Positions 558 to 59,000 of a stretch of DNA of 64,000 nucleotides are shown here, one piece after another; the stretch's first letter is position 1; every line of letters starts with the position of its first letter. The position numbers and the translations under genes are program-made. The notes below the pieces were generated by a model. It did not search any database, had not been told where the DNA came from, and was given only the letters and a program-made list of their open reading frames with translations. This DNA comes from Odiellus spinosus (taxonomy: Eukaryota > Arthropoda > Arachnida > Opiliones > Phalangiidae): the NCBI GenBank assembly GCA_963920705.1, contig OY987239.1:10693504-10757503 (forward strand), written 5' to 3'.

Positions 558-3463
558 TTTTATTTATATGAAATTTTTCCTGTAGAACTGCACTAGCGAA
601 GCTTACCATTATGATTGAAAATAACACAACCCTGAGGAAAACAATAATTAGCATAATTACTAAGTACTATTCAAACCTTAATAGTATCTAAAAACGACGG
701 TATTTCGCCACCACTCGAACTAACAAACAAAAATATACCTAACGCCAGAAGCCGATGAAACCCTCCTTTGAAGTCTACTACTCTAATGTTCGATATAGCA
801 CTCATCTCTGTATGGGTAAAATTCACAATTTTACGAGATCGGAGGGGTCCTACTTCATCCCCCCTGTCTACGGAAAATTGGAAATTCTCTCTCTCCACAA
901 ACGACGACGTTTTTTTTGACGAACTCCGAGGCTGCTAGAGATATTCGCTCGACGAACTCCCGCTCCGAAAATATCTACCGTTAGGAGGCGTACGAATCGC
1001 GCTTTTTGAAACTAACCCATACAGAGAGGGGTAGACAAGACCCGGGAGTAATAGACTTCAAAGGAGGGTTTCATCGGCTTCTGATATAAAGAATTATATT
1101 CTTACATGATAACTATGTGATATTTTTCTAAAGATGGTTTTGATATTGAGTCACAAAGAGCTTTTCCGACAAGAAAATTTAGTTTTTCGGCAACTGCGTG
1201 TTAAAAATGTTCCAATATTTTATTAAGAGCCTATGTCGTGTTTTAAATATCATAATTATGCAAAACGTACTATTATTAGTGATAACCATGACGTCCATTT
1301 GCGTACAAGTAGAAGGAATGCAAATTCCCAGTAATTTATCCATGCTCATGTACTCCCAGCCAGCATGCTTCATGCTTGATAATAACTGTAATGAATTTCG
1401 TAAAATCAAAATATTACTTCTCTGAATAGTTACTAGTGACAAACCCAAGCTATTCTAAACAAACCCAAGCTATTCTAAACAAACCCAAGCTATTCTAAAC
1501 AAACCCAAGCTATTCTAAACAAACCCAAGCTATTCTAAACAAACCCAAGCTATTCTAAACAAACCCAAGCTATTCAAAACAAACCCAAGCTATTCTAAAC
1601 AAACCCAAGCTATTCTAAACAAACCCAAGCTATTCTAAACAAACCCAAGCTATTCTAAACAAACCCAAGCTATTCTAAACAAACCCAAGCTATTCTAAAC
1701 AAACCCAAGCTATTATAAACAAACCCAAGCTATTATAAACAAACCCAAGCTATTCTAAACAAACCCAAGCTATTCTAAACAAACCCAAGCTATTATAAAC
1801 AAACCCAAGCTATTCTAAACAAACACAAGCTATTCTAAACAAACCCAAGCTATTATAAACAAACCCAAGCTATTCTAAACAAACCCAAGCTATTCTAAAC
1901 AAACCCAAGCTATTATAAACAAACCCAAGCTATTCTAAACAAACCCAAGCTATTCTAAACAAACCCAAGCTATTATAAACAAACCCAAGCTATTCTAAAC
2001 AAACACAAGCTATTCTAAACAAACCCAAGCTATTCTAAACAAACCCAAGCTATTCTAAACAAACCCAAGCTATTCTAAACAAACCCAAGCTATTCTAAAC
2101 AAACCCAAGCTATTCTAAACAAACCCAAGCTATTCTAAACAAACCCAAGCTATTCTAAACAAACCCAAGCTATTCTAAACAAACCCAAGCTATTCTAAAC
2201 AAACACAAGCTATTCTAAACAAACCCAAGCTATTCTAAACAAACCCAAGCTATTCTAAAGAAACCCAAGCTATTCTAAACAAACCCAAGCTATTCTAAAC
2301 AAACCCAAGCTATTCTAAACAAACCCAAGCTATTCTAAACAAACCCAAGCTATTCTAAACAAACCCAAGCTATCATAACCAAACCCAAGCCATAGTTTTG
2401 ACAAACTCTAGAATATTTCTTCACACCTCTGATTTTGGAAAATATGTTTTTAGTTCATCAAGAACATCATTGTAGTATAAGACATTTTTTCTTGTCGGCA
2501 AATGTGGCTGAAGATGTAGAATACAGAAATCACCAGTTATTGAAGGATATCCGTTCCAAGGCTTACTATTGATATTGACACATTCTTCATAGTTGCCAAG
2601 AGATAAATGGTTGTCGAACAATTCTCCCCCACGATGAAATGGATTTGCATCCAAAACTGTATAGGAACAAGTTAAAAAAAAAAGGTTTCGTGGCATATCT
2701 GCCGTGAATAGAAAGGAGCTTGATTTACAAACTTGAGGGTACTATTTAGCCCGACAGTTGTAGTTACTACTAATACTACCAGAAGCCGATGAAACCCTCC
2801 TTTGAAGTTTATTACTCCCGGGTCTTGTCTACCCCTCTCTGTATGGGTTAGTTTCAAAAGGCGCGATTCGTACGCCTCCTAACGGTAGATATTTTCGTAG
2901 CTGGAGTTCGTCCAGCGAATATCTCTAGCAGCCTCGGAGTTCGTCAAAAAACGTCGTCGTTTGTGGAGAGAGAGAATTTCCAATTTTCCGTAGACAGGGG
3001 GGTATGAAGTAGGACCCCTCCGATCTCGTAAAATTGGGAATTTTACCCATACAGAGAGGAGCGCTATATCGAACATTAGAGTAGTAGACTTCAAAGGAAG
3101 GTTTCATCTACTACTGATAATATCTGATTAACATTCAATTAACAAAATTATAATATTTAAAATAATCTTACTTTCCAAGGCCCATGTTTTTAATTGTTTA
3201 GCATCCAAAAATACTTTACGAATGCCCACTTTGCAAATATCAGACACTGACGTGTTGTTGTTCGTTGAGACAGTATCATTAACGAAAATCCAAAGATAAT
3301 CCATTATATTATTTATAACGTCATGAAAATTGTTCTCCATTTTCTTCCAATTATTTAGTACGGTTTCTTCATTATCGTATATTTTATATGGAACATTAAG
3401 TAACATGCCTTTCTTAGCAAGAGTTGAGGTTAAAGTGCACAGTACGACGTATAATAATAACAT
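558..3463 (-). CDS. NRF-6-like protein, N-terminal part (nose resistant to fluoxetine domain), 5' exons
   Basis: Four minus-strand exons join in phase: 3172-3463 (ATG at 3463), 2427-2656, 1271-1385 and, less surely, 558-587. All are bounded by GT/AG. The product starts with a hydrophobic signal peptide (residues 1-16, ending TLA). It continues with hallmarks of the NRF N-terminal domain: SDICKVG, then WALE joined across intron 1 to ILDAN, then LGNYEECVNI, GDFCILHLQP and LLGICIPSTC, with the conserved cysteines spaced as in the family. NRF-6 proteins usually have this secreted-side domain followed by a multi-pass acyltransferase-3 domain. That part would lie beyond the left edge, so the gene is partial. 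In worms and flies, family members act in lipid and drug uptake and gut or respiratory function. The exact role here is not inferable. Introns 1 and 3 each contain a family A MITE, and intron 2 is almost wholly a 20-bp minisatellite. The 30-nt fourth exon is supported only by matching phase and splice sites. Confidence 0.8.
746..1083 (+). mobile_element. MITE family A, copy 1
   Basis: A 338-bp element with inverted ends CAGAAGCCGATGAAACCCTC / its complement, and subterminal inverted CTCTGTATGGGT. It lies in intron 3 of the NRF-like gene. Its flanks show no clear duplication, so it is either old or rearranged. Confidence 0.9.
1441..2392. repeat. 20-bp minisatellite in NRF-like intron 2
   Basis: About 47 head-to-tail copies of AAACCCAAGCTATTCTAAAC. 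Point variants (TATTATAAAC) recur every third unit between about 1720 and 2000, giving a 60-bp higher-order period. The array fills most of the 1041-bp intron between NRF exons 2 and 3. Confidence 0.97.
2780..3116 (-). mobile_element. MITE family A, copy 2
   Basis: Reverse-oriented copy in intron 1 of the NRF-like gene. The distal end has mutated (CATCTACTACTG instead of CATCGGCTTCTG). The flanks ATACTAC/ATAATAT look like a decayed 7-bp duplication. Confidence 0.9.
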
Positions 3464-3596
3464 GACTCTGATTTCTGTTTCGAGATAAAGTCAGAAAAAA
3501 AATATTATTTAATAATTCAATATTTAGGGAAGTAATTAAGTCTAAATATACACTGCACTTGAAACCCACAAAATTATCATTGGCCGTACATATTAT

Positions 3597-11786: not shown

Positions 11787-12423
11787 GTACGGAAATTGAC
11801 CCTTTTTTGCTGAGTTACCTATTGACTACCCCCTTAACAAAAGTTAATTTGTTAATACTCGATGGTAAAAATCACCTGGTAGTGCGAACATAGATTGTTG
11901 AGTCGGGGGCTGAGATGAGGAAGGTATGTAGGGGGGTCTCGTTTTAATTAACAAGAAGCCAGATTTACGGTTTACTTATCAATATTCTAGGCTAGCAACT
12001 ATAACGCTTTGTTCTTAATTAAATACGCTCCTATAGAGAAACGGTTTGGAGAATAAGGGTATGGACAAGGTGCCTCGGGATGTTTCTGCTCCTTCTCTAG
12101 AGAAAATAAACTATAAGGCTTTTAACTTTCTTAGAAGTGTATGAAGCGAGTCAAAGAAGACGACGAAAAAATCATGTATAGAAAAAAAAAACGGATGTAA
12201 GGTGGCTAACAGATGGTGTTCATTAGTAGCGGCTTAAAGGAATAGACTCGTCTGAAAGTTAAGAGTTTAATCTAGGACAAGTGGTCGACCAGTACAGTGG
12301 TAACTAACACAAACCCCGTGTGTGTCGCCAGTGAATAGAAATTATCAAAAATCTGTCACTTAATTCCACTCGAACTAGTTCCTACACTCTTGTTATATTT
12401 TGAGTTATAAGGGCAAAATAGAA
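11787..12423. other. Intergenic, no gene recognised
   Basis: No convincing exon, RNA or repeat. It includes a run of 10 A near 12182. Confidence 0.4.
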
Positions 12424-13236
12424 AACTGCGCAAATGGCAACCGCGCAAATGGAAATGCGCAAGTGGGGAACCGCGCAAATGGGAACTGCGCAAGTGGGGA
12501 ACCGCGCAAATGGGAACTGCGCAAGTGGGGAACCGCGCAAATGGCAACTGCGCAAGTGGGGAACCGCGTAAATGGAAATGCGCAAGTGGGGAACCGCGCA
12601 AATGGGAACTGCGCAAGTGGGGAACCGCGCAAATGGCAACTGCGCAAGTGGGGAACCGCGTAAATGGAAATGCGCAAGTGGGGAACCGCGCAAATGGCAA
12701 CTGCGCAAGTGGGGAACCGCGCAAATGGCAACTGCGCAAGTGGGTAACCGCGCAAATGGCAACTGCGCAAGTGGGGAACCGCGCAAATGGCAACTGCGCA
12801 AGTGGGGAACCGCGCAAATGGCAACTGCGCAAGTGGGGAACCGCGCAAATGGCAACTGCGCAAGTGGGGAACCGCGCAAATGGCAACTGCGCAAGTGGGG
12901 AACCGCGCAAATGGCAACTGCGCAAGTGGGGAACCGCGCAAATGACAACTTCGCAAGTGGGTAACCGCGCAAATGGCAACTGTGCAAGTGGAGAACCGCG
13001 CAAATGGCAACTGCGCAAGTGGGGAACCGCGCAAATGGCAACTGCGCAAGTGGGGAACCGCGCAAATGGAAATGCGCGAGTGGGGAACCGCGCAAATGGA
13101 AATGCGCGAGTGGGGAACCGCGCAAATGGCAACTGCGCAAGTGGGGAACCGCGCAAATGGAAATGCGCAAGTGGGGAACCGCGCAAATGGAAATGCGCAA
13201 GTGGGGAACCGCGCAAATGGAAATGAGAAGTGATAG
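12424..13236. repeat. 31-bp GC-rich minisatellite (GCGCAAAT family)
   Basis: About 26 copies of a 31-bp unit made of two related halves, CCGCGCAAATGGCAAC and TGCGCAAGTGGGGAA. The unit contains no stop codon in several frames, so long open frames appear on both strands. They have no start context, no splice sites and frame-shifted identical repeats, and are not genes. Confidence 0.96.
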
Positions 13237-14095: not shown

Positions 14096-14560
14096 AATTT
14101 CAAACCTCAATTAAGCCTAATTTTAAACAATGATTAATTAAGCCTAATTTCAATTATGGACTAAGCCTAATTTCAATCATGGATTAAGATTATTTCAATC
14201 ATGGATTAAGCCTAATTTCAATCATGGATTAAGCCTAATTTCAAACGTGGATTAAGCCTAATTTCAAACGTGGATTAAGCCTAATTTCAAACGTCGATTA
14301 AGCCTAATTTCAAACGTCGATTAAGCCTAATTTCAAACGTCGATTAAGCCTAATTTCAAACGTCGATTAAGCCTAATTTCAAATGTCGATTAAGCCTAAT
14401 TTCAAACGTCGATTAAGCCTAATTTCAAACGTCGATTAAGCCTAATTTCAAACGTCGATTAAGCCTAATTTCAAACGTCGATTAAGCCTAATTTCAAGCG
14501 TCAATTAAGCCTAATTTCAAACGTCAATTAAGCCTAATTTCAAACGTCGAATAAGCCTAA
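14096..14560. repeat. 23-bp minisatellite
   Basis: About 19 copies of AAGCCTAATTTCAAACGTCG plus ATT. The complementary strand reads AATTAGGCTTAAT, a core shared with several other arrays in the window. Confidence 0.95.
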
Positions 14561-15151
14561 TCGATTTTGAATTTAATAGAGTTAAATCTCTACCGCGAAC
14601 CTAAACCTTAATTACTAACAGAATAATCATCCTTTTTTAATGATTGTCGCCTGCCTTTTCAAATTAATATAAACGTAATCTTAATACTAAATAATACCCG
14701 TTAAAATCTAATGGCAAAATTAATTTCAAAGCCTTATTGCACCCTATTCGTAATCGCTACTAATATTCTGCCCCAAAGCCACCTGTAAAAGGTAGACAGC
14801 CTTGAAATAATATAACCATTGCAGACATATTTACACCTGACATGTGCATGATTAACTTAACCTAGAATTTTCTGTAAATAATGACATGTGGCTAACAGCT
14901 GTATACATTAGAGATTAGCGTTGTATTAGGAATGAAATACATAATTGTCCTCTACTTCATCTTAATTGAATTCAAAAACATAACGTATAACTTATCATCA
15001 AAGTTGATAATAACAACACAAAAATGTATGTTTAAATTTCTACTTAATTTATTTTTCTCCCATATAATTATAAAACAAGTTGGGATTGTCGAATATATAA
15101 AAATTATTTACACGCATATCCAATATAGCTAATACTGTCCTGGAAAGAATA
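14561..15151. other. 3' flank of the minus-strand secreted gene
   Basis: No additional gene recognised. The sequence is AT-rich and would hold the 3' UTR of the 15152-16808 gene at its right end. Confidence 0.4.
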
Positions 15152-16808
15152 TTAGCTTTGGATTTCTTTATCATTTTGAGTTACATTTGCGCGATTGTCG
15201 TTATTATCCTCCAAGGTAAATGACACGACATCCTCATCAGATTTTGCAAAACTAAGGTTAGTTGAAGGATCAGACGTGATATTGGAGCGAGTTTCTACAA
15301 CTTGGGTCGGATCATATTCGGTTTGTTGGAAGTCGATGTCGTCTTGCACAAGTGACAAGAGTTCCAGAAGCGAAGGGCTTGTTTTTTGTTCGTCTACTGT
15401 TCCGGTTTCAGGACCTTTAAGAATGTGGTAGAAAATTAGAAACACGTATTACAGCTATAAGTTGTAAGACACTTCGTACCAGAAGGTATAGTCAACTTGT
15501 CAACCTTCCCGTCTTCATTCAATAAGAGTTCAACGATTTTGAACAATTCCTCGTCTCCAACTTTGGAAACTGGAAAAAAGTTTAATTCTCATTTAGGGTT
15601 CGAATGATGCGAACCAAGGCTCGAAAATTAACCCACCAACAGGCTTGTTTTTGCCCAAGAACATCTTAATTATTTCGTCGTATTTCTTGTCCTTTGGCTG
15701 TTTGTCAAAATCATCAACCTTCGACAATTGACACTTGTTTGACTTTAAGGTCGTGGTGCAATTCTTCACGACGGCAATCGTGATGTTGATGGCATTGTGA
15801 GTATTGGCCACGTTGTCAATTTGAGTAGAACCAGTTTTGTGCGGCAATGATAGTGATAGATGCTCGTTGGGTTTAACCAAGGCAAAGTTAATTCCAGATG
15901 ACTTGTGTCCGCTTGTTGATAGAGAAGGCCACTTCTGAAATAAGTTAAAGTTAACTGTGTTAACGAAGTATATTTGAACTAGTAGCCTTACTCCAACTGG
16001 TTGAGACTTCCAAGGAGCGTAGGTTTTAACCGGGGCAAAGGTTGGGTTGACCAACGGCATAAACTGGAAAGATTTAACTGGTAACGGCTTCAATGACGGG
16101 AAAACGAATGGCTTGAATGTCGGTACTGGCAAAGATTTCATTGGAGCGAAAGTAGGAAAAGGTTTCAATGTCGGAAGGACCAACGGCTTGAATTCCGGAA
16201 ACGGGATGGATTTAATTGATAATGGCTTCAGAGAAGGGAAGACGAATGGTTTGTATTGCGGCATCGGCTTCAATGGAGCGAAAGTAGGGAATACGTAGGG
16301 AACTGGTTTGAAAACGGGTAATGGTGCCATTGTTGGGTACTTATACACCGGATATTGATAGATGGGATACTGATAGATGTACTTAATCGGCTGAACGTAG
16401 ACAGGGATTGATTTCATTTGCATCTGGAATTAAGGTTTAACAATCATTAAGAACGATTTGAAGTAATGAGATATTTAAAATAAGGTGATAATGTACCGGG
16501 CCATATCCGCAAGGCCTTTGTCTAGGATTATGCTTTCCATAATTGTCGTAACACGGGAAGATCTCGTCGTAATGCTTTCCTTGTCGATTTTCTTCGTCAT
16601 TACGGTTGAATACAGTATTTATACGAATTACTTCATCAGTACCGTTCTGAAATACTTGTACTGCATCCGTCTCGTTGCCGCCTAAAAAAAGAACAAGAAT
16701 TGGAACAAATAATTCACTTTTTCCTTATAAATACTTACCTTCTGAACTGGTCACTGTCGCAATGATGACTCCATAGAATACGATGGTTGCTACGTTTAAA
16801 TAATTCAT
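15152..16808 (-). CDS. Secreted Pro/Lys/Phe-repeat protein, paralogue 2 (6 exons, 445 aa)
   Basis: Exons on the minus strand: 16739-16808, 16497-16681, 15992-16423, 15637-15934, 15480-15569 and 15152-15414. All have GT/AG borders and matching phases. The product begins MNYLNVATIVFYGVIIATV, a signal peptide. Exon 2 carries NGT and NET glycosylation sites and the pair CYDNYGK / RPCGYGP. Exon 3 encodes Tyr-Pro words, then three tandem repeats of about 22-25 residues built on P-x-F-K-P-(F/L)-V-(F/L)-P-x-L-K-P. Exon 4 has a two-Cys block (VVKNCTTTLKSNKCQL). The C-terminal exon is acidic and ends NDKEIQS. The family is not recognised. A secreted structural role (egg coat, cuticle, seminal or salivary) is only a guess from the signal peptide, repeats and TATA promoter. 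Its mirror image is the gene at 17115-18669. This copy keeps an extra exon boundary and segment that the partner has lost. Confidence 0.85.
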
Positions 16809-17114
16809 GATTTTGCTTCTGGTATCGCTCAAACTGTTCAAACTGGAAATGATGATGAATTTGGACGAATGCTGTGGTTTATATACCATTTTGAACTAAT
16901 ATGTTTTTAAATAATAGACCAAAAAATAATTATGGTTCTGATAAAGTAATATTTTTTATATTATCCAAAAAAATCGCTTTATCATAATCATATTTTTTTT
17001 AGCCTATTATTAAAAAAAAAACTTGTTAAAATTGGTATATATAAACCATAGCAGACGTCTAAAGTTATCATCATTTTGACTTGTAGCGTTTTCATCTACT
17101 AAGAGACTGATATC
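16809..17114. promoter_or_regulatory. Bidirectional mirrored promoter region of the secreted gene pair
   Basis: Only 306 bp separate the two start codons. TATATAAA boxes lie at 16878-16885 (minus) and 17036-17045 (plus), each about 70-80 bp upstream of its ATG. The sequence between them is itself roughly inverted: AATAATAGACC...TGATAAAG from the left resembles the complement of the right side, AATAATAGGCT...TGATAAAG. The promoter was thus duplicated along with the gene. Strong canonical TATA boxes suggest regulated, tissue-specific expression (inference). Confidence 0.8.
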
Positions 17115-18669
17115 ATGAATTATATTAACGTAGTACTGGCAGTGTTTTGTGGAGTCATTATAGCCTTAGTGACAAGTGCAGAAGGTAAGTACTGAAGGAA
17201 TCTTGTGATAAGTAATTTGTTTCAATTCAGAATGTTCTTATTCAGGCGGAAACGAGACGGATGTGGTACAAGTACTTCAAAACGGAACTGACGAAGGATT
17301 TCGTAGACTTGATGTCTTCAATCGAAATGAAGGAAACTCGGGAGGAAACCGACGTGTGAAACATTTCGACGAGATCAAACCGTGTTACGACAATTACGGA
17401 AAGCATATTCCTAGACAAAGACCATGTGGATATGGTCCGGTACATAATCACCTGGAATTACCATTTTTTTTATTTCTTTAAATCGTTCGTAATTGGTTTT
17501 AAAACCTTAATTCCAGATACAAATGAAATCAATCCCTGTCTACCAACCGATGAAGTACATCTATCAGTATCCCATCTATCATTATCCGACGTACAAGTAC
17601 CCAACAATGGCACCATTACCCATCTTCAAGCCGGTTCCCTACAAATTCCCAACTTTGGCTCCATTTAAATCTTTACCCATGCCGCAATTCAAACCATTCG
17701 TATTTCCATCTCTGAAGCCGTTGTCCATTAAATCCATCCCGTTTCCGGAATTCAAGCCGTTGGTCCTTCCGGCATTGAAACCTTTCCCTACTTTCGCTCC
17801 AATCAAATCTTTGCCTGTACCGACATTCAAGCCATTCGTTTTCCCGTCATTGAAGCCGTTACCAGTTAAATCTTTCCAGTTTATGCCGTTGGTCAACCCA
17901 ACCTTTGCCCCGGTTAAAACCTACGCTCCTTGGAAGTCTCAACCAGTTGCAGTAAGGCTATTGGTTCAAATATATTCGTTAACATACTGAACTGTAACTA
18001 ATTTCAGAAGTGGCCTTCTCTATCAACAAGCGGACACAAGTCATCTGGTATTAACTTTGGCTTGGTTAAACCCAACGAGTATCTATCACTATCATTGCCG
18101 CAAAGAACTGGTTCTACTCAAATTGACAACGTGGCCAATACTCACAATGCCATCAACATCACTATTGCCGTCGTGAAGAATTGCACCACGACCTTAAAGG
18201 AAAACAAGTGTAATTTGTCAAAGGTTGATGACTTTAGCAAACAGCCGAAGGACAAGAAATTCGACGAAATAATTAAGATGTTCTTGGGCAAAAACAAGCC
18301 TGTTGGTGGGTTAATTTTAGAACCTTAGTTCACATAATTAGAACTCTTAAATAGAACTTATTTCCAGTTTCCAAAGTTGGCGACAAGGAATTGTTCAACA
18401 TCGTCGAACTCTTATTGAAAGAAAAAGACGACATTGATTTCAAACAAATCGAATATGATCCGACCCAAGTCGAAGAAACTCGCTCCAATTTCAGTTCATA
18501 TCCTTCAACCAACCTAAGATTGGCCGAATCCGACGATGTCGTGTCACTTATAACCTTGGAGGATAATAACGACAACCGCACTGATTCAGAACATGACTCC
18601 AGGACACTGTATCTAACTCAAAATGATCCAAGAACTCCTAAGCTAATATTTTTTCCAGAACAGAATTAG
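17115..18669 (+). CDS. Secreted Pro/Lys/Phe-repeat protein, paralogue 1 (5 exons, 432 aa)
   Basis: Exons 17115-17184, 17246-17439, 17517-17951, 18008-18305 and 18368-18669, with GT/AG borders and continuous phases. ATG at 17115 opens the signal peptide MNYINVVLAVFCGVIIALV. Exon 2 has NET and NGT sites and CYDNYGK / RPCGYGP. Exon 3 has YPIYHYPTYKYP followed by three KPFVFPSLKP-type repeats. Exon 4 has VVKNCTTTLKENKCNL. The tail is acidic (LEDNNDNRTDSEHD). The donor after PVV (GTGGGT at 18306) is the only choice that keeps the downstream frame; retaining that intron would end the protein at VGGLILEP. Compared with its mirror paralogue, exon 5 runs straight from LLLKEKD to DIDFKQ. It lacks the paralogue's intron and about 35 codons around it. 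The function is unknown and expression is presumably shared with the partner through the common promoter. Confidence 0.85.
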
Positions 18670-18888
18670 CTCCGTTGGACAAAATTTATTTTTTTATATA
18701 TACGACAATTCCAGCTAAAATTTTATGTATTTACATGGGAGTAAAATATATTAATATTTAAACGAATGATTGTAATTTGGTTGTTATTAACGTTGATTAG
18801 ATATCTGTTTTTGATTCAAATGAATCAAGTCTAGGGAAAACAACATTGCCTACATTTACTACCATGTTCTCGGAACGTTTATTAAAGG

Positions 18889-19226
18889 CAGAAGCCGATG
18901 AAACCCTCCTTTGAAGTCTATTACTCCCGGGTCTTGTCTACCCCTCTCTGTATAGGTTAGTTTCAAAAAGCGCGATTCGTAGGTCTCCTAACGGTAGATA
19001 TTTTCGGAGCGGGAGTTCGTCGAACGAATATCTCTAGCAGCCTCGGAGTTCGTCCAAAAAAACGTCGTCGTTTGTGGAGAGAGAGAATTTCCAATTTTCC
19101 GTAGGCAGGGGGTATGAAGTAGGACCCCTCCGATCTCGTAAAATTGTGAATTTTACCCATACAGAGAGGAGCGCTATATGGAACATTAGAGTAGTAGACT
19201 TCAAAGGAGGGTTTCATCGGCTTCTG
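18889..19226 (-). mobile_element. MITE family A, copy 7
   Basis: Full-length copy just downstream of the plus-strand secreted gene. Both inverted ends are intact; the flanking duplication is unclear. Confidence 0.92.
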
Positions 19227-19955
19227 ATAAGATCTTTCCGAAGTCCTTGTTAACCTCAAGGTGTCAAATTTTCAATTTAGAGTTTTAATACAATTAAAAA
19301 TCTAAAAAAATTTCGAACCTGGACAGTAATCGCTAGTTATTACTTTTACAAACGCCATACTCAGGGAGGGCGACGTCGTATTTATTTTTGTTAAAAATAA
19401 ACGAAAGAATTGTGTTTTTTATGGTATTAAGTCTAAATAAGGTCCGACAATCCGTATATAGACCCTTTGGTCGTTTTATCCAATTGTAACTGTTTTCTGG
19501 CGGGCAGTAAAGTGCTTTTAAACGGGCGGACTCAATAAAGAGAGTGAGAGTGAGTGTAAGGCTACGATTGTGAGAAAAAAAATAGACAAAAGTATAAAGA
19601 AGAGAGTTATGTCTGAAAACTCGCCATATAACGCGCTATAAAGAAAATTACGGTTCTCGTTCTTTGCCGGTATAGTTCTAGCTAGGGCCGACCTATTACC
19701 GCTTTTTCAGCTATAAAGTCAGTTGGGCAATCAATTTTCTTCTCTCGTAGAACCCAAACTCTCGATTCGTTCGAACCCCTTTACCCGTCAAGGGATAGTC
19801 TCAGAGAAAATTAATTTAATTGGTCAAGATCTAAAATGAACTTACGGGAAAGTTAAGTACTTATAGAGATGGTAATGGATTCCAAATTACCAAAAGGAAA
19901 TCATTTTAAATCGGTAGTCAATGGGTAACTCAACAAAAAGGGTCATCTATCGTAC
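19227..19955. other. Intergenic, no gene recognised
   Basis: No exon or RNA gene seen. It contains a short GAGAGTGAGAGTGAGTG purine tract near 19540. Confidence 0.4.
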
Positions 19956-20256
19956 CAGAAGCCGATGAAACCCTCCAATGTTCCATATAGCGCTCCTCTC
20001 TGTATGGGTAAAATTCACGATTTTACGAGATCAGAGGGGTCTTACGGAAAATTGGAAATTCTCTTTCTCCACAAATGACGACGTTTTTTTGACGAACTCC
20101 AAGGCTGCTAGAGATATTCGCTCGACGAACTCCCACTCCGAAAATATCTACCGTTAGGAGGCGTACGAATCGCCCTTTTTGAAACTAACCCATACAGAGA
20201 GGGGTAGACAAGACCCGGGAGTAATAGACTTCAAAGGAGGATTTCATCGGCTTCTG
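19956..20256 (+). mobile_element. MITE family A, copy 8 (internally deleted)
   Basis: A 301-bp copy lacking about 20 bp of the left inverted end and part of the interior. The flanks ATCGTAC/ACCGTAC are a 7-bp duplication with one change. Confidence 0.9.
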
Positions 20257-20384
20257 ACCGTACCTATTATCAAAGGATTTGGCCTACAGCGTGCCCACTC
20301 GCCGCGAGAGAGTTCAGTAGACTGGGAAATAAGTCATTCCCATACCATCATTACCCCGAGAAAATTTTAGACGTCACTATTATA

Positions 20385-20847
20385 AGCGACGTTCGCACTA
20401 GCATTTAATCGATTTGAAACTCAAATCGATATTCAAATCGCCAGGTTGCATTCATACTAGGCCTTGAAATCGATTTAAACCGTTTCAAAACGTTTTGCTG
20501 GAGTCGTGTGAACGGGACATCGTCTTTTATCGAATCGATTTGATTCGATATTTCGAAACTGCTTCGGGAACCAGTTTCATAGCGATTCGATTTCAACAAC
20601 CGACAGATGAAGCTACAATAAATCGATTTATAATGTGACCGTATCTATTATCTTTATAAATCGATTTATTATAGATCTTTATCTATCGGTTGTTGAAACT
20701 TCCGAATCGGTATGAAACTGGTTCCCGAAGCAGTCTCGAGAAATCGAATCAAATCGATTGAGAAATGAAGGTTTCCTGTTCACACGAGTCTAACGAAACG
20801 TTTTGTAACGGCTTAAATCGATTCCAAGGTCTAGTATGAACGCGGCT
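20385..20847. mobile_element. Foldback element family E, copy 1
   Basis: Long imperfect palindrome. The left arm starts AGCGACGTTCGCACTAG and the right arm ends CTAGTATGAACGCGGCT. Both arms contain ATCGATTT words and the block GGGAACCAGTTTC or its complement. It is related to the tandem array at 39354-41275. Confidence 0.8.
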
Positions 20848-20875
20848 ATTGTTCCTTAGAACATTTTGTATGATC

Positions 20876-21165
20876 AAGAAGGATCAGATAAGGAGAGGAA
20901 AAGTGGGGCTGCGTTGAGTTAGAGAGAGAAGAGCCAACCTCCCACTCGGGTGGAAAGGGGGGATAGGAAATTCTCGAGGTAAACTGTTGTCACGTGGTCG
21001 CTAGCTAGCGGGTCTCATAAAGGATTCGTTTTACCCACGTGACAACAATTTACCACGAAGCATCTCTACCCCCGTCTGTCCCCCGTTCTCCCAGAGTGGG
21101 AGTTTAGGCCGACGCAGTAGGAGCCGCGCCGTCCCCACATTTCCTCTCCTTATCTGATCCTTCTT
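20876..21165 (+). mobile_element. MITE family B, copy 2 (Mutator-like)
   Basis: A 290-bp copy with ends AAGAAGGATCAGATAAGGAG. The 9-bp flanks TGTATGATC/GGTATGATG match at 7 of 9 positions. Confidence 0.88.
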
Positions 21166-21683
21166 GGTATGATGTTTCGTGAGATTTAACCTTTTAGACT
21201 TTTACCGTGAAAGGAGTCGTCCCTAGCTGCTCGACTAGATAGATATAAAAGAAGCGATGGAATAACAGGGGGCGTGAGGTAGAAAAAAAAAGGAAGAAAG
21301 ATAGATAGAAAACCAAAACAGATAAAGCCTTTTTATCTTTTAGGACCTCTATAAGACTGAACCGAAACGCTTTTCGAAGTGACCCTTTATAACCCTTTTT
21401 TCGACCATCTCTTAGCTTTCCTTCTTCTTATTGGCCTTTTTTTATGCTACGCTAAGCCTTTTCCGACACCCTTTCTACGACGACTTGTACATAACCCTCT
21501 TGAACTACAATTTGTCGAAAACGACGGATAATTAGGTAGATTCAATTTCTTTTTCTAAGAGAGCCCCATTTCCGGGTTAGTCGAGCGTGTTTTACACCGA
21601 ATGGCCAAAACAATAACAATATAAAAAAATTCTTGTTTTTCGTCTGTTTTGTAAAATCTAATTTCCAATTTAGTGAATTTAGT
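21166..21683. other. Intergenic, no gene recognised
   Basis: Pyrimidine- and purine-rich tracts only. No exon, RNA gene or structured repeat could be supported. Confidence 0.4.
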
Positions 21684-22022
21684 CAGAAGCCGATGAAACC
21701 CTCCTTTGAAGTCTATTACTCCCTGGTCTTGTCTAACCCCTCTCTGTATGGGTTAGTTACAAAAAGCGCGATTCGTACGCCTCCTAACGGTTGATATTTT
21801 CGGAGCGGGAGTTCGTCCACCGAATATCTCTAGCAGCCTCGGAGTTCGTCAAAAAAACGTCGTCGTTTGTGAAGAGAGAGAATTTCCAATTTTCCGTAGA
21901 CAGGGGGGTATGAAGTAGGACCCCTCCGATCTCGTAAAATTGTGAATTTTATCCATACAGAGAGGAGCGCTATATCGAACATTAGAGTAGTAGACTTCAA
22001 AGGAGGGTTTCATCGGCTTCTG
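21684..22022 (-). mobile_element. MITE family A, copy 9
   Basis: Full-length 339-bp copy with both ends canonical. The flanks are not clearly duplicated. Confidence 0.92.
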
Positions 22023-49135: not shown

Positions 49136-49210
49136 ATGAAAGCCCTCAAAGGCCCAAAGATCTCATTACTCGGGAGTATTAAACCGCCGCTCCCGCTTTG
49201 TTTGGTGTGA
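49136..49210 (+). CDS. Upstream open reading frame in myosin IX 5' leader (24 codons)
   Basis: An ATG right after the 49126 acceptor opens a 24-codon frame (MKALKGPKISLLGS...). It stops at TGA 49208-49210, five bases before the main ATG at 49216. It is in a different frame. If included in the mRNA it should lower initiation at the main start or act through reinitiation. Confidence 0.45.
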   Translation: MKALKGPKISLLGSIKPPLPLCLV

Positions 49211-49215
49211 CTGGA

Positions 49216-50052
49216 ATGGCCTGTGGACGATATGTTTTACAAGTGCACGTTGGTGCCTTCAGCACCCTTTACGAAGCGTTATCGATCGAAGCGAGCAAGG
49301 AAACATCGGCGCTTGAAATAGTTTCTTGCGTGGTTGATAAGCTACAATTAGACCAACCGCACAATTACGAGCTAGCCGAAGTTATAGGAGATTCGAGCGG
49401 TCAAGATTGCAAGGAGAGAAGAATCGGGCCTCACGAATATCCCGCAGCCTTGCAACTTCTTTGGCCCAGACACGTCACGGTGCCTAATAGCAAAACTGGT
49501 GAAGTATTTCAAGCGCCACAATACAGGTTTTGCTTAAGAGATAAACAAGGAGAAACTGCCAATAAAGGACAACCATGGCCGGAAAACGCGGACCCCCAAT
49601 TAATACGGGATTACTTTTTACGATTTTTGTATCAACCGCGGGAGAAAGAATACACGGATTTATGCCAACTTCCGGATCTTACGGAACAAACTCTGTTAGA
49701 GAACTTGAAATCCAGGTTCGAAAAGGGTCACATATACACGTACGTCGGGTCCATCTTAATCGCGGTAAATCCTTTTCGATTCTACCCCATTTACAACCCA
49801 AAATACGTCAAGCTGTACCAGAACCGGCGGTTAGGAGAGTTGCCCCCTCATATCTTTGCCATAGCCGACGCCGCGTATCAAGCCATGTTACGAGAAAAGA
49901 AAAATCAGTGCATCGTGATATCGGGAGAAAGTGGTTCGGGTAAAACGGAAAGCACAAATCTTTTACTTCATCATTTGACCGCTCTTAGTCATAAAGGCGC
50001 TCATGGAAGTGGAGTCGAACAAACTATTCTTAGTGCTGGACCTGTTCTAGAG
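49216..50052 (+). CDS. Myo9: Myo9 exon 1: RA domain and start of motor
   Basis: 279 codons. Residues ~1-95 form an RA/ubiquitin-like domain ([20 protein letters not shown]). From ~150 the motor begins ([20 protein letters not shown]), with [14 protein letters not shown] and YNPKYVKLY. The P-loop GESGSGKT is at residues 237-244, followed by [14 protein letters not shown], all typical of class IX. The donor GTAGGT follows GPVLE at 50052. Confidence 0.95.
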
Positions 50053-53000
50053 GTAGGTTATTCATTTATCCTATTTCTCTTAAAAGTACGGATGAAATAT
50101 GGCCTTTTATATTAAATTAATATTTGATTAAGACCCTTATTTTGGTTTTCAAGCGAATATCCGATATTTGGTATTAAAACTATATGGTTTGAAAAATACA
50201 ATTTGTTTCAATATTTGGTTTGAAAACTGCTTTTCGTTTCAAAATTTGGTTTAAAAACTTTCTTGCTATATCAGTTTTGAAAACTGTTTCGAAATTTAGC
50301 AAGCCATATCTTTAGTAAACTACTATATGTTTATTTTTGATACTTTGTTAGCAATACATAGTTTTCACTAAAGGGGGTAAGTGCCGTTCCCCCCATGTTG
50401 CCAACCACTTGTGAGTGCAGAGGGAAAGGCTAGAGTTCAGTTTTGAAACTAATCTGTTCTGAACTGCACTCACAAGCTCCTGGCAACCTGGGAATGAAAG
50501 CAAAGCTGGGTAAGAGGGGTGGAATTATCTTTTGCCCCTTTACTGAAAACTATGTATTAAACTCAGTCACCCGATTCAGGCCATGACAAATTTATCTCGC
50601 GTCAAAGCTAATGAATTTAACACTCAGAAATTTAAAAATTTAAATCAAATTTGATCTAAAATAATCCAAATTGGAAAATTCCAACAAAATTCTACCAAAT
50701 GTCAACAAAAGTCAAGTCATTTAAAATTTTGGTACTCTTTTGTTGAATTTGGATTATTTTATTTGGTCTATTTGGTTGAATTCTGTCGGTATTTACCAAT
50801 TTGGACCATTTTTGACCAAAATAGAACATTTTTCCTCGTTAGAAAACCCAATTTCTATGAGAGTGAAAGCCGCGTTCACAGTAGAGACTTTGAAACTGAT
50901 TTGAACCGGTTTGAAAAGGTCAAATAATAGAATATCGTGGTCTCCCGTGTAGATCTTTGACCAAGAAATAGAAGTAATTTCTTGAATAGTCGATTTGATC
51001 CTTGAAAACGGTTTCAAAGTGTCAAGTGTGAACGTAGTAAAACAGCCTCAGGAATTGGCGCAAGATAAATTTGACAAGGTTCAACACGAGTCTACTTTTA
51101 AAAGTTAAGTCTGTAAATTATCATAATTATTTTAGGCTTTCGGTAATGCCAAAACTAAACACAACAACAACTCTAGTAGATTTGGTAAATTTATTCAAGT
51201 AAACTACAAGGAAAATGGCGTTGTACACGGGTAATTATTTTGTTAAACTAAATAATAATCTAAATTTCCTTTAATCGATGGTCGCACGCTTTTAATTTCA
51301 GCGCTATTGTCCAGAATTATTTGTTGGAAAAGTCTCGTATTGTGTGCCAAGCTCGTAACGAGCGCAATTATCACGTGTTTTACTATCTATTGGCTGGAGC
51401 TTCGGAAACTGAACAATCCCAGCTTCATTTATCAAAACCCGAAGCGTATTATTACCTTAATCAGGTATTTCTTTGCGTATATATTAAATTGAAGTCACGG
51501 GTTGGTTAATATGAATTTTTCTAACGCAATCTTCTTTATATTAATAAACAGAGCCAATGTTACGTTCTCGATGGTGTTGACGAAGTTTACGAATACTCTA
51601 GGCTTAAACAATCGATGGAAATGGTTGGATTTAGTACTGATAAGCAAATGAAGTATGTTTACGCGATAATATTGATAAGAGTAACGCTAATATTTTCGTT
51701 TTTTTCTTCCTTCAAGGCTCTTGAGTATTTTATCAGCCGTTTTGCATCTGGGAAATGTAGAGTTTAGCAAAGTAAGCTATTTTTTTTTAACTAAAGTTCA
51801 AAACTAATGATTGTCTTGAATGGGTAAACGATATTGAGGTTATCGACTTTATGTATTTAAAAACTGATCTTTCCTGATACTGATATAATTTCTGAGAGGA
51901 GATAGATGGCGTTTGAAACGCTTATTTCAAATTGACCTTGATATGGGTGTCAATTTGACCTTGATATCGGTGTTAATTTGTCCTTGATATCGGTGTCAAT
52001 TTGACCTTGATATCGGTGTCAATTTGACCTTGATATTGGTGTCAATTTAACCTTGATATTGGTGTCAATTTAACCTTGATATTGGTGTCAATTTAACCTT
52101 GATATTGGTGTCAATTTTACCTCGATATCGGTATCAATTTGACCTCAATATCTGTATCAATTTGACCTCAATATCGGTATCAATTTGACCTCAATATCGG
52201 TGTCAATTTGACCTTAATATCGGTGTCAATTTGACCTCAATATCGGTGTCAATTTGACCTTGATATCGGTGTCAATTTGACCTTGATATCGGTGTCAATT
52301 TGACCTTGATATTGGTGTCAATTTGACCTTGATATTGGTGTCAATTTTCCCTCGATATTGGTGTCAATTTGACCTCAAAATTGGTATCAATTTGACCTCA
52401 ATATTGGTATCAATTTGACCTCAATATTGGTATCAATTTGACCTCAATATTGGTATCAATTTGACCTCAATATTGGTATCAATTTGACCTTGATATCAGT
52501 GTTAATTTGACCTCAATATCGGTGTCAATTTGACCTCAATATCGGTGTCAATTTGACCTCAATATCGGTGTCAATTTGACCTCAATATCGGTGTCAATTT
52601 GACCTCAATATCTGTGTCAATTTGACCTCAATATCTGTGTCAATTTGATCCCAATATCGGTGTCAATTTGATCCCAATATCGGTGTCAATTTGATCCCAA
52701 TATCGGTGTCAATTTGATCCCAATATCGGTGTCAATTTGATCCCAATATCGGTATCAATATGACCTCAATATCTGTATCAATTTAACTTTGATATCTGGG
52801 TCAATATGACCTTTATATCTATATCAATATAACCTCATTATCAGTCAATTTCCTCTTGATATCGGTGTCAATTTGATACAACCCGATATCACTCTACACT
52901 ATATTTCGAATTTTGATCTCCCTGTGGTAACAGAAATCAACGCATCACTCTGACGAAGCTGTAACTGTTAAAAATCCTGAAGTAGTTTCGCTTATATCGA

Positions 53001-56000
53001 ATCTACTGGGTGTTAAAGAAGAAACTCTTAGCACCGCTTTAACGTGCAAGAGAGCGAAAGCCAGGGGAGAAACGTTGGTGATTAATTACAAAATGCCGGA
53101 AGCGGTCGCTACCAGAGACGCTTTGGCCAAAGGACTTTACGGGGCTTTGTTCGATTGGATCGTAACTCAAGTTAATCGAGCTTTACTCTTTAAAAGAGAC
53201 TCTAAAGAACACAAAGGAAATAGTATCGGTGTCCTCGATATATTTGGATTCGAAGACTTCGGAGATCACAATAGTTTCGAACAGTTTTGTATTAATATCG
53301 CCAACGAACGGCTTCACTATTACTTTAACCAACACGTCTTCAAGTACGAACAGGAAGAGTATCAACGAGAAGGTATTCAATGGAAAAACGTTGAGTTCAT
53401 CGATAACACCGCTTGTTTAGAACTTATCGAAGGCCGGCCGTACGGTTTACTTTGTTTGCTCGACGATCAGTGTAGTTTTCCAGGCGCTTCGAACGCTACG
53501 CTTCTTCACAAATTTGAGCAACATCAAAAAGCTAACGACTATTACGAGATGCCGCATAAAAGGGAAAATGCTTTCTTGGTTAAACATTACGCGGGAATCG
53601 TCAAGTATCAAATCAAGGTATGACACCTTTTTATATTTATTTAAAAGGAGCCACAAATGATCAATTTGTACAAATCTAATTTCGAATTTTTGATAATCTT
53701 GACTAAGGCTTAGTCCAATTTCAAAAAAACTTCATCTAGGCTTAGTCGAATTTCCAAAAACTTGACCAATGCTTAAAATTAGAAAACCTCAACCAAGGCT
53801 TAAACTAATTTCGTAAACCCTGACCAAGGCTTAAACCAGTGGTGAACGATTCGCGAGTGACTGTACAACCAAGCCTGATCATTCGCGGATTTTCCCACCT
53901 CTAGCTTAAACTAATTTCGAAAACTTGACCAAGGCTTAAACCAAATTCAAAAATCTTAACCAAGGCTTAAACCAAAATTCAAAAATCTTCACCAAGGCTT
54001 AAACCAAATTCAAAAATCATGACCAAGGCTTAAACCAAATTCAAAAATCATGACCAAGGCTTAAACCAAATTCAAAAATCATGACCAAGGCTTAAACCAA
54101 ATTCAAAAATCATGACCAAGGCTTAAACCAAATTCAAAAATCATGACCAAGGCTTAAACCAAATTCAAAAATCATGACCAAGGCTTAAACCAAATTCAAA
54201 AATCATGACCAAGGCTTAAACCAAATTCAAAAATCATGACCAAGGCTTAAACCAAATTCAAAAATCATGACCAAGGCTTAAACCAAATTCAAAAATCATG
54301 ACCAAGGCTTAAACCAAATTCAAAAATCATGACCAAGGCTTAAACCAAATTCAAAAATCATGACCAAGGCTTAAACCAAATTCAAAAATCATGACCAAGG
54401 CTTAAACCAAATTCAAAAATCTTGACCAAGACTTAAACCAAATTCAAAAATCTTGACCAAGACTTAAACCAAATTCAAAAATCATGACCAAGGCTTAATC
54501 TAGTTTGGAAAAACTCAACCAAGGCTTAGTCTAATTTCAAAAAACTCTTATTGATCCCAATACAAAAAATATTCATGGATCCTTAAGCGGTGAAGGTAAA
54601 AATTGATTCTAATCAAGAAATCTAACCTTGATTTGATTTGTAAGGGTCTGGACCATACCTTACATTCAATTCTATCGCGTAAGAGTTATTGGTTTACTTT
54701 AATTGTAGGATTTTCGAGAAAAGAATGTAGATCTAATGAGACCTGACATAGTTACGTTGCTTAAGAGTAGCAGTCTCGCTCTTGTTCGGGAGCTGGTTGG
54801 AGGGGACCCAGTGGCCCTCTTTAGGTGGGCAACCCTTAGAGCGTTCTTCAGAGCATTCCACGTTTTTGTCAAAATTGGTAGAAACCATAAAATTTCCGAA
54901 GGAAAGAAAGAATCAAGTCGAAAACTTCCGCAAAGAAGAAAGTCTTCGGAAAATGTTTCATGGTTGGTAGTAATACGATGAAAGTTTAAATTAATTAAGA
55001 AAATTATCTTAATTAGTTTTAATTTATAGCAAAATGTGTAAAGTGTCTTGCGCGAGATGTATTCAAAATCGCAAACCGTTATCTTCGGTTCAAGGGAAAG
55101 GGAAACAAGCGAGTAAGGCAAATTGCGTTATCGGATGCGGTCATTGTTGTCCCATTCATAATAACATTCTTAACGACGGCGATGCTAAAGTTATGGAGAG
55201 GGCCAATGAAATTCTTCTGTAAGATTTTAATTTTAAGCTCTAGGTTTTGTTCGAAGGATTAACGTTTTTAAAATTAGTAAAAGGAAACCTTCGAAACCAC
55301 CGAAGAACAAGAAAATTATCAAAGAGCTTCAATTTGTCAAAACTATGATTGGGCGAACTTATTCCGTACCTCAAAGGGCAACGAGAAAGCAACCTTCTAC
55401 AGTTAGTGCGCAGTTTCAATCATCACTTAATCAATTGATGGAAGCCTTGAATCATGCGAATCCCTTTTTTGTTCGATGCATCAAGTCTAATTCAGAAAAG
55501 GTTCGTAATACATAATTTTCAAATATTGCATGGGCCAAGATTGTGATTCAGTCAAATCACACAAAAATTACATTAAAATCAGTGAAATCGTACTGAAATC
55601 ACTAAAATTGTGCTTGAATCGCTAAAAAATTGCTTTAATTGCTTAGATTATAATTGAAACATTAAAATTATGCTTGAATCATTAAAATTATGCTTGAATC
55701 ATTAAAATTATGCTTGAATCATTAAAATTATGCTTGAATCATTAAAATTATGCTTGAATCATTAAAATTATGCTTGTATCATTAAAATTATGCTGGATTG
55801 CTTAAAATTAGGCTCGTATCCTTAAAATTAGGCTCGAATCCTTAAAATTAGGCTCGAATCCCTTAAATTAGGCTGGAATCCTTTAAATTAGGCTGGAATC
55901 CTTAAAATTAGGCTCGAATCCTTAAAATTAGGCTCGAATCCTTAAAATTAGGCTCGAATCCTTAAAATTAGGCTCGAATCCTTAAAATTAGGCTCGAATC

Positions 56001-59000
56001 CTTAAAATTAGCCTCGAATCCTTAAAATTAGCCTCGAATTCCTTAAAATTAGGCTCGAATTCTTTAAAATTAGGCTCGAATTCTTTAAAATTAGGCTCGA
56101 ATTCTTAAAATTAGGCTCGAATTCTTAAAATTAGGCTCGAATCCTTAAAATTAGGCTCGAATTCTTAAAATTAGGCTCGAATTCTTAAAATTAGGCTCGA
56201 ATCCTTAAAATTAGGCTCGAATTCTTAAAATTAGGCTCGAATTCTTAAAATTAGGCTCGAATCCTTAAAATTAGGCTCGAATTCTTAAACTTAGGCTCGA
56301 ATTCTTAAACTTAGGCTCGAATTCTTAAACTTAGGCTCGAATTCTTAAACTTAGGCTCGAATTCTTAAACTTAGGCTCGAATTCTTAAACTTAGGCTCGA
56401 ATTCTTAAACTTAGGCTCGAATTCTTAAACTTAGGCTCGAATTCTTAAACTTAGGCTCGAATTCTTAAACTTAGGCTCGAATTCTTAAACTTAGGCTCGA
56501 ATTCTTAAACTTAGGCTCGAATTCTTAAACTTAGGCTCGAATTCTTAAACTTAGGCTCGAATTCTTAAACTTAGGCTCGAATTCTTAAACTTAGGCTCGA
56601 ATTCTTAAACTTAGGCTCGAATTCTTAAACTTAGGCTCGAATTCTTAAACTTAGGCTCGAATTCTTAAACTTAGGCTCGAATTCTTAAACTTAGGCTCGA
56701 ATTCTTAAACTTAGGCTCGAATTCTTAAACTTAGGCTCGAATTCTTAAACTTAGGCTCGAATTCTTAAACTTAGGCTCGAATTCTTAAACTTAGGCTCGA
56801 ATTCTTAAACTTAGGCTCGAATTCTTAAACTTAGGCTCGAATTCTTAAACTTAGCCTCCAATCCTTAAACTTAGGCTCGAATCCTTAAAATTTAGGCTCG
56901 AATCCTTAAAATTTAGGCTCGAATCCTTAAAATTTAGGCTCGAATCCTTAAAATTTAGGCTCGAATCCTTAAAATTTAGGCTCGAATCCTTAAAATTTTG
57001 GCTCGAATCCTTAAAATTTTGGCTCGAATCCTTAAAATTTTGGCTCGAATCCTTAAAATTTTGGCTCGAATCCTATAAATTAGACTCGAATACTTGAAAA
57101 TAGGCTGTAAATCTCATAACGACTCATTCGTTGCACCCTTAAAATGTAGTTTAACAACCTTTTCCTAATTTTCCCTCCAGGTTCCTAATTTCTTCGACGA
57201 GAAAATAGTCCTTCAGCAGCTACGATATACGGGAATGCTCGAAACGGTTCGAATTCGTCAATCGGGCTACAGCGTGAGATTAACGTTCGAGGAATTTATC
57301 CAACAATATCGAATCCTTTTACCGAAAGGATTGTTAAGCTCTCAAGTAGACATTTGTCATTTCCTGACCAAAATGAATCTAAACCTGAATAATTATCAAA
57401 TGGGAAAATCAAAAGTGTTCCTTCGCGAGTGCGAAAAATTACGCTTAGACGAATTTCTTCATCAAACTATCATGCGACATATCGTTACGTTGCAACGATG
57501 GATTCGAACCTGGCTGGCCAGGAGACATTACAATAGGATGAAGGAAGCCGTACTCGTTATTCAACACCGCGTTAGGATTTTTCTACAAAAAAAACGGGCC
57601 AGTCGCAAAATGTCACCCGAAACAGCGGCCATTTGTATTCAAAGTCACTGGAAAGGTTACCGGACGAGGAAATGGTCGGAAAAACTCAAATCAAGTTGCG
57701 TTAATTTCCAAAACTGCTGCCGAGGTTATTTGGCTCGACAAAGGTTAGTTCACTATTTTTTTAGTTATCGAGATAAGAGTCTGTAATTTACCATACTTAT
57801 TTTTCCAAATATGATGGTAATTACTCAAATACAGTATTTTACTGACTGTAAATTACTAAATACTATGTTAATTACTTACTGATGTTCAAATACTGACTGT
57901 AATTTACCAAATACGATGGTAATTACTTACTCAGGGTTGCCACAGACCTGGAAAACCTGGCAAAGTCAGGGAATTTCATATTTGGTCTAAAAAGTCAGGG
58001 AATTTTAAAATTGTTCAAAGGTCAGGGAAAAGTCTGGGAATTTTCATATCATCATTGAAATTGCGTATTACTACTAATTTAAACCTTTAAATTGGTCAGG
58101 GAAAACCTGGGAAAGTCAGGGAATATTGTTATGAAAAATCTGTGGCAACCCTGTAATACTGATTTTCAAATACTGTATTTAGTTAATTTACCAAATCATA
58201 TGGTAATTTATTGATTGTAATTTACCAAATACAATGGTAATCACTGAATTTCAAATACCGTATTTTACTGACTGTAATTATTGAAATACTATGGTAACTT
58301 ACTGATTTTTAAGTACCGTATTTTAGTGACTGTAAATTACCAAATTATATGGTAATTAATTGATTTTAAAATACTGAATTTTACAGACTGTAATTTATAA
58401 ATTATATAGTAATTTATTGATTTTCAAATACTGTATTTTAGTTACTGTAATTTACCAAATTATACGGTAATTTATTGATTTTCAAATACTGTATTTTAAT
58501 TTCTGTAATTTACCAAATTATATGGTAATTTATTGATTTTCAAATACCGTATTTTACTGACTGTAATTTACCAAATACTATGGTAATTACTGAATTTAAA
58601 ATACTGTATTTTTTCTAATTTATTAAAATACAATGTTAGCTTATTGATTTCTAAATACTGAATTTTTCTGACTGTAATTTACCAAATATGATGGTAACTT
58701 CCTAATTTTCAAATACCGTAATTTACTTGATAAATGTACGATATGTTTCAGATTTCAAGGAATGTGGGTTCGATACAGACGCGAGAAAGTCACCACGCTA
58801 CAACAAGAGCAAACTTTAAAGCATTTCCAAGATCTCTTACATGGAAAGGGATTTTTAGCTGGAACAACATTCCCTAGAGATTTTTCCGCTAATAACCATT
58901 CCGAGGATGACCTTTCTTATCGAGATAGAGAAAGGTTTGTACTCTTTTTTTTCCTTCTTCTTAATTTACGTAACACCAGCTAAGTCATTTAAAACAAATG

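Follow-up and report, generated by a model that had tools for sequence, protein, structure and literature searches.

Results

Two genes of one family, here called A and B, stand head to head as mirror images of each other in the window, by which we mean the whole stretch of 64,000 nucleotides of Odiellus spinosus DNA analysed here (C17:10693504-10757503). This arrangement is real and far beyond chance. We consider it quite probable that it goes back to an old inverted duplication with two copies of the promoter typical of the family, and that the middle of the genes was afterwards subject to gene conversion between the inverted arms. The duplication would have set two complete gene copies back to back, each bringing along a TATA promoter of the family type; the promoter, exons 1-2, exons 5-6 and the 3' flank would have diverged since then, and exon 3, intron 3 and exon 4 would have been homogenized by conversion. 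Both gene conversion as the agent, for which paralogues within one genome were compared, and inverted duplication, in preference to tandem duplication followed by inversion, are what we infer from these data.

The two genes and their products

Gene models were derived from splice sites and the conserved reading frame. Gene A (15152-16808, minus strand) has 6 coding exons (16808-16739, 16681-16497, 16423-15992, 15934-15637, 15569-15480, 15414-15152), which a GT-AG splice model joins into an open frame of 1338 nt encoding 445 amino acids. Gene B (17115-18669, plus strand) has 5 coding exons (17115-17184, 17246-17439, 17517-17951, 18008-18305, 18368-18669), likewise with a GT-AG splice model and an open frame, for a coding sequence of 1299 nt and a protein of 432 amino acids. 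The two proteins can be aligned over their full length, with the exception of one main block that has no counterpart in B and of small indels.

The protein features listed in a preliminary description of this DNA are recognizable in both products. Exons 1-2 encode a hydrophobic N-terminus, judged by eye to be a putative signal peptide, and the N-terminal pair of cysteines; exon 3 encodes the proline/lysine-rich repeats, exon 4 the C-terminal cysteine domain and exons 5-6 the acidic tail. The cysteines of A are at 67/81 and 288/297; B has the matching four and one more in the signal peptide. There are three KP[FL]V[FL]P.LKP repeats in A and three in B, in a region with 24% Pro and 11-12% Lys, and each protein has seven N-x-S/T sites. 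The tail contains 26 D/E versus 9 K/R across the last 116 residues in A, and 22 D/E versus 11 K/R across the last 99 residues in B. On the strength of the signal-like N-terminus, the Pro/Lys-rich repeats, the N-x-S/T sites and the variation in repeat number among the relatives described below, the proteins may be an extracellular or glandular proline-rich product.

The statement that the family, described as lineage-specific, matches nothing recognizable holds as far as Pfam and PDB are concerned: the gene A protein (query of 443 amino acids, spliced by hand) found no Pfam family at E≤10, the protein of the pair that was tested found no PDB chain at E≤1, and no paper matching the motif strings of the family was found in the literature. 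It does not extend to the genome of the animal itself, in which relatives are present. An AlphaFold2 model of exon 4, built from two sequences, has a mean pLDDT of 36.9.

The mirror arrangement

The preliminary description had proposed a mirror-image, head-to-head pair, and had named a similarity ending with the coding exons, promoter excluded, as one outcome that would speak against it. When arm A is aligned with the reverse complement of arm B (blastn), homology passes beyond the coding exons: position 16956 downward pairs with position 16967 upward, and the alignment continues outward through both promoters, the exons and the introns. A first piece (E = 0.0) has 84% identity over 1472 columns and a second 70% over 454 columns, ending near 14949 and 18835, such that about 170-200 bp of 3' flank are still alignable (14949-15151 on the minus strand for arm A, 18670-18835 on the plus strand for arm B). 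Only about 10 bp at the centre of symmetry (16957-16966) are without arm-to-arm alignment. The midpoint is 16960.5 for the TATA boxes and 16961.5 for the ATGs, which puts the mirror centre at 16960-16962. A and B are thus linked paralogues in inverted orientation, and both genes are intact.

Several other features of the surroundings were observed. Beyond gene B, pieces of 38-173 bp with GAAGCCGATGAAACCCTCC at their ends recur several times in the region 18886-22000, in inverted as well as direct orientation, and look like a mobile element or its remnants. On the outer side of gene A there are minisatellites at 12360-13225 and 14100-14628, with units of 30-31 nt and 23 nt. An open reading frame with a signal-peptide-like start (3128-3490, minus strand) has no Pfam match at E≤0.01, and at 49183-57786 (plus strand) there are exons that encode the RA, motor and IQ domains of an unconventional myosin, probably myosin IX. 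The contig that harbours the window starts with a 22-nt satellite (L041, C17:1-1500) and ends with TTAGG, as a telocentric chromosome would; TTAGG telomere repeats, of a kind known from insects, were present at the far end of all three contigs examined and at the near end of none.

Relatives in the genome and the probable loss of intron 5

DNA and protein searches of the genome (443 Mb, 286 contigs) recovered at least seven close members of the family (A, B and five on contig C2) and at least one distant single gene; these counts are lower bounds, as 150 of 592 candidates were scored in one protein search, and all 13 and all 16 in two others. The five C2 copies (c1 to c5) lie on one strand at 2.190-2.206 Mb (C2:2190000-2206000; L010, L011), head to tail, with ATGs 3.4-3.6 kb apart and a long satellite downstream of the array; exons 1-4 were modelled for c1-c4 and exons 1-3 for c5. 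The number of repeats in exon 3 varies: relative to c1, there is one additional 21-residue block in c2 and c4, and there are two in c3 and c5. Pairs of C2 copies have long stretches of 100% identity adjoining less similar ones.

The distant gene, on contig C5 (L037 5393-3799, minus strand), is a single copy with three exons and an open frame. Its parts follow the same order as in the A/B family: a signal-like N-terminus, a Cys pair, a tyrosine-proline stretch, then KP-rich repeats, and finally a C-terminal stretch in which NVGNT, NVT, KNC and a second Cys occur. The repeats match with E = 3.7e-7 genome-wide; taken by itself, the C-terminal part gives no significant match across the genome (E = 1.14), though it does so within the 9-kb locus (E = 2e-5 and 5e-6). 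Homology therefore rests on the order of parts and the repeat match together, and within this genome the gene may represent the family's oldest branch. Two pieces of it gave no Pfam match above the cut-off (HNF-1_N was sub-threshold, E = 0.056). An end similar to that of the GAAGCCGATGAAACCCTCC pieces also occurs upstream of this gene. Protein-search matches examined on C6 and C13 were rejected as relatives, being simple tandem repeats of the FPNLKNL type; other matches, on C1, C2, C5, C6, C7, C11 and C13, had E values of about 0.001 to 0.6.

The relatives also bear on the exon layout, which had been described as mirrored. The pair is inverted and homologous, but the mirror is not complete, because B is without intron 5 of A and the coding sequence adjoining it. 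The stretch involved runs in A from the last part of exon 5 through intron 5 into the beginning of exon 6 (15345-15515, minus strand). AAGACG starts in A both at 15515 (exon 5) and at 15345 (exon 6), and a single AAGACG marks the deletion junction in B (18425-18430, plus strand). The deletion was in frame, with a net loss in B of 34 codons (by protein alignment) and of the 65-nt intron. Copies c1, c2 and c3 retain a start like that of exon 6 of A, with a GTACG donor before it, so that by parsimony the loss would be the derived state in B. These three copies have CG instead of AG at the position of the acceptor of A; an AG 12 nt downstream is a candidate acceptor, in frame and followed by an A-like peptide (ESTDVPEDIPSPMKLLSLVELTDDIDF). 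The later DDIDF part is retained in c4; in c5 neither this part nor the exon-6-like start was found.

Promoters

The preliminary description had the pair driven from one duplicated promoter. What we find instead is two outward-facing core promoters, of a type common to all five C2 relatives. The TATA elements are GGTATATAAACC for gene A (16876-16887, minus strand) and, with one extra TA, GGTATATATAAACC for gene B (17034-17047, plus strand). Each is preceded by an upstream element (TTTTTTGGTCTATTATT, 16910-16926, minus strand, for A; TTTTTTAGCCTATTATT, 16995-17011, plus strand, for B) of the form TTTTTT(G/A)G(T/C)CTATTATT, with the TATA element 22 nt further on; both upstream elements have close counterparts in the C2 copies, and near-identical promoter elements are present in all five of them. 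The pattern CTATTAT-N18-48-GGTATATAAAC occurs 9 times in the 443-Mb genome, and 6 of these occurrences precede genes of the family (the five C2 copies and A); the reversed control has 0 genome-wide, and gene B escapes the exact pattern on account of its extra TA. The three matches elsewhere are at C2:12803450, C2:19060001 and C15:7168411.

Identity in the aligned upstream block is 68% between A and B, 60-66% between A and the C2 copies, and 61-66% between B and the C2 copies. As the promoters of A and B are barely closer to each other than to those on C2, and the same module precedes five C2 relatives, the TATA promoter is most likely a property of the family that predates the pair. For this reason the mirrored promoter, which would be expected from any duplication of the whole gene, says little about how the duplication occurred. 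The earlier proposal that an inverted duplication copied gene and promoter together is therefore sustained in so far as the inverted arms are homologous, promoter included; the similarity of the promoters was discarded as proof of it (68% versus 60-66% to the C2 promoters).

With the promoters set aside, it is possible, if on balance unlikely, that the copies arose as a tandem duplicate of which one was inverted later, with the same gene conversion thereafter; the five C2 relatives are all head to tail, so that the rest of the family appears to have multiplied by tandem duplication. Against this order of events, the shared sequence of A and B extends nearly as far as the centre: only in the segment 16927-16956, just outside the family-wide element, are they clearly closer to each other (79% identical over 28 sites) than either is to the C2 copies (43-61%), a pattern that weakly favours the junction of a one-step inverted duplication.

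The region between the genes might also be seen as one shared bidirectional promoter, a regulatory unit for A and B that would have selected for the arrangement. Bidirectional promoters are attributed to head-to-head genes with start sites less than 1 kb apart, and A and B fall within this distance going by their ATGs, 306 bp apart; their TATA boxes face outward at 146 bp from each other, and the upstream elements are kept in both. We nevertheless think this explanation unlikely, as each gene has a complete core promoter of the family type, and the same module is present singly in the C2 copies, so that sharing is not needed. The two TATA promoters would be likely to be active in the same cells.

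Uneven divergence between the arms

Synonymous and nonsynonymous divergence were calculated by the Nei-Gojobori method for each exon region. Between A and B, dS falls from 0.71 in exons 1-2 to 0.19 in exon 3 and 0.08 in exon 4, and rises again to 0.59 in exons 5-6; dN is 0.17 in exons 1-2 and 5-6, and 0.04-0.05 in exons 3-4, with dN/dS below 1 in all four regions. Pooled, the proportion of silent differences (pS) is 0.13 in exons 3-4 versus 0.44 in exons 1-2 plus 5-6, and a value as low for the middle occurred in none of 20000 permutations of codon order. Given silent divergence of 0.6-0.7 at the ends of the genes, a recent duplication was rejected.

The same unevenness is not found with respect to outgroups. 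From A and B to c1, c2 and c3, dS is 0.76-1.22 and even over exons 1-2, 3 and 4; this comparison covers exons 1-4, exons 5-6 having been left out because exon 5 is expanded on C2. When A or B was compared with c1 or c2, silent divergence in exons 1-2 exceeded that of the middle in none of the four comparisons. The dS of 0.76-0.96 that separates A and B from the C2 copies in exons 1-2 is little above the value between A and B themselves, silent sites being near saturation; dN there is 0.17 between A and B versus 0.36-0.39 to c1, c2 and c3, so that A and B are sisters outside the homogenized tract too.

This tract consists of exon 3, intron 3 and exon 4 (15637-16423 on the minus strand in arm A, 17517-18305 on the plus strand in arm B), with A-B identities of 93, 88 and 95%, respectively. 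Since A and B are 88% identical in intron 3, versus 61% between A and c1 and 66% between B and c1 (the latter over 29 aligned sites only), coding constraint alone is not the cause of the similarity. The longest identical run is 133 nt, whereas 2000 permutations of the 1864 ungapped columns, a test that does not allow for coding constraint, yielded no run longer than 65. Identity in the other introns is 69% for intron 1 (58% in the whole-arm alignment), 77% for intron 2 and 81-82% for intron 4; given this lack of a sharp edge, several conversion events are likely. A part of the genes is thus far more alike at silent sites while divergence from the outgroup, over exons 1-4, is even, and the similarity of the middle is best read as the result of later gene conversion between the arms, not as a date for the duplication.

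The higher dN in exons 1-2 and 5-6 might instead suggest that the inverted duplication is young and that its ends are evolving exceptionally fast, by mutation or diversifying selection and with no gene conversion. The excess, however, concerns silent sites as well (0.71 and 0.59 versus 0.19 and 0.08), and in exons 1-4 no such unevenness is seen between A or B and the C2 copies; we regard a young duplication of this kind as very improbable. To an assembly artefact or a haplotype copy joined inversely we give almost no credence: such artefacts occur, and the C2 array does have stretches of 100% identity, but A and B differ by an end dS of 0.6-0.7, by indels and by an intron, and both frames are intact.

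Discussion

These results can be viewed in the light of gene pairs already described. In Drosophila, the Hsp70 and amylase pairs are in palindromic orientation and undergo conversion, confined to the coding sequence in the case of amylase, according to a review of gene conversion in Drosophila (PMC3924832). On sequence grounds, the A/B pair appears clearly to add a new case to this known type, in which palindromic duplicates undergo ectopic gene conversion. The likeness to Amy-p/Amy-d lies in the palindromic orientation of linked paralogues; those, however, are enzyme genes, whereas in A/B the homogenized part is internal, includes an intron and excludes the first and last exons. Hsp70Aa/Hsp70Ab and Hsp70Ba/Hsp70Bb are also mirror-image linked pairs with ectopic gene conversion (PMC3924832), but they encode conserved heat-shock proteins, in contrast to the putatively secreted, Pfam-unmatched family of A and B. 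Among secreted proteins, the salivary glue genes of Drosophila have experienced duplication, local inversion and conversion, as set out in a study of that family (PMC10835880). Sgs3, Sgs7 and Sgs8 can be likened to A and B by the behaviour of the genes only and not by sequence, and any resemblance in the function of the proteins is only an analogy.

The homogenized tract lies between two divergent, exchangeable halves of the genes, and A and B agree in splice phase at its edges. It is conceivable, though we think it rather improbable, that the locus inverts itself: beside conversion, crossovers within the near-identical exon 3-4 stretches would flip the central 1.1-2.7 kb. On the same slender odds, the flipped segment would carry, besides the two promoters and exons 1-2, a portion of exons 3-4. 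If this were true, self-inversion would swap promoter, signal peptide and N-terminal domain between two different C-terminal halves, and the central segment might be segregating in the population in either orientation.

Whichever way the arms were first joined, the near-identity of mirrored genes need not mean a recent duplication, and caution is advisable when such pairs are dated. Old inverted duplication followed by conversion of the middle would make this family a natural experiment, in which inverted arms have undergone conversion on one contig, tandem copies have been duplicated head to tail on another, and one promoter module is common to the two. With the A/B pair it thereby becomes possible to study which segments of a secreted repeat protein have to remain matched and which are free to diverge.
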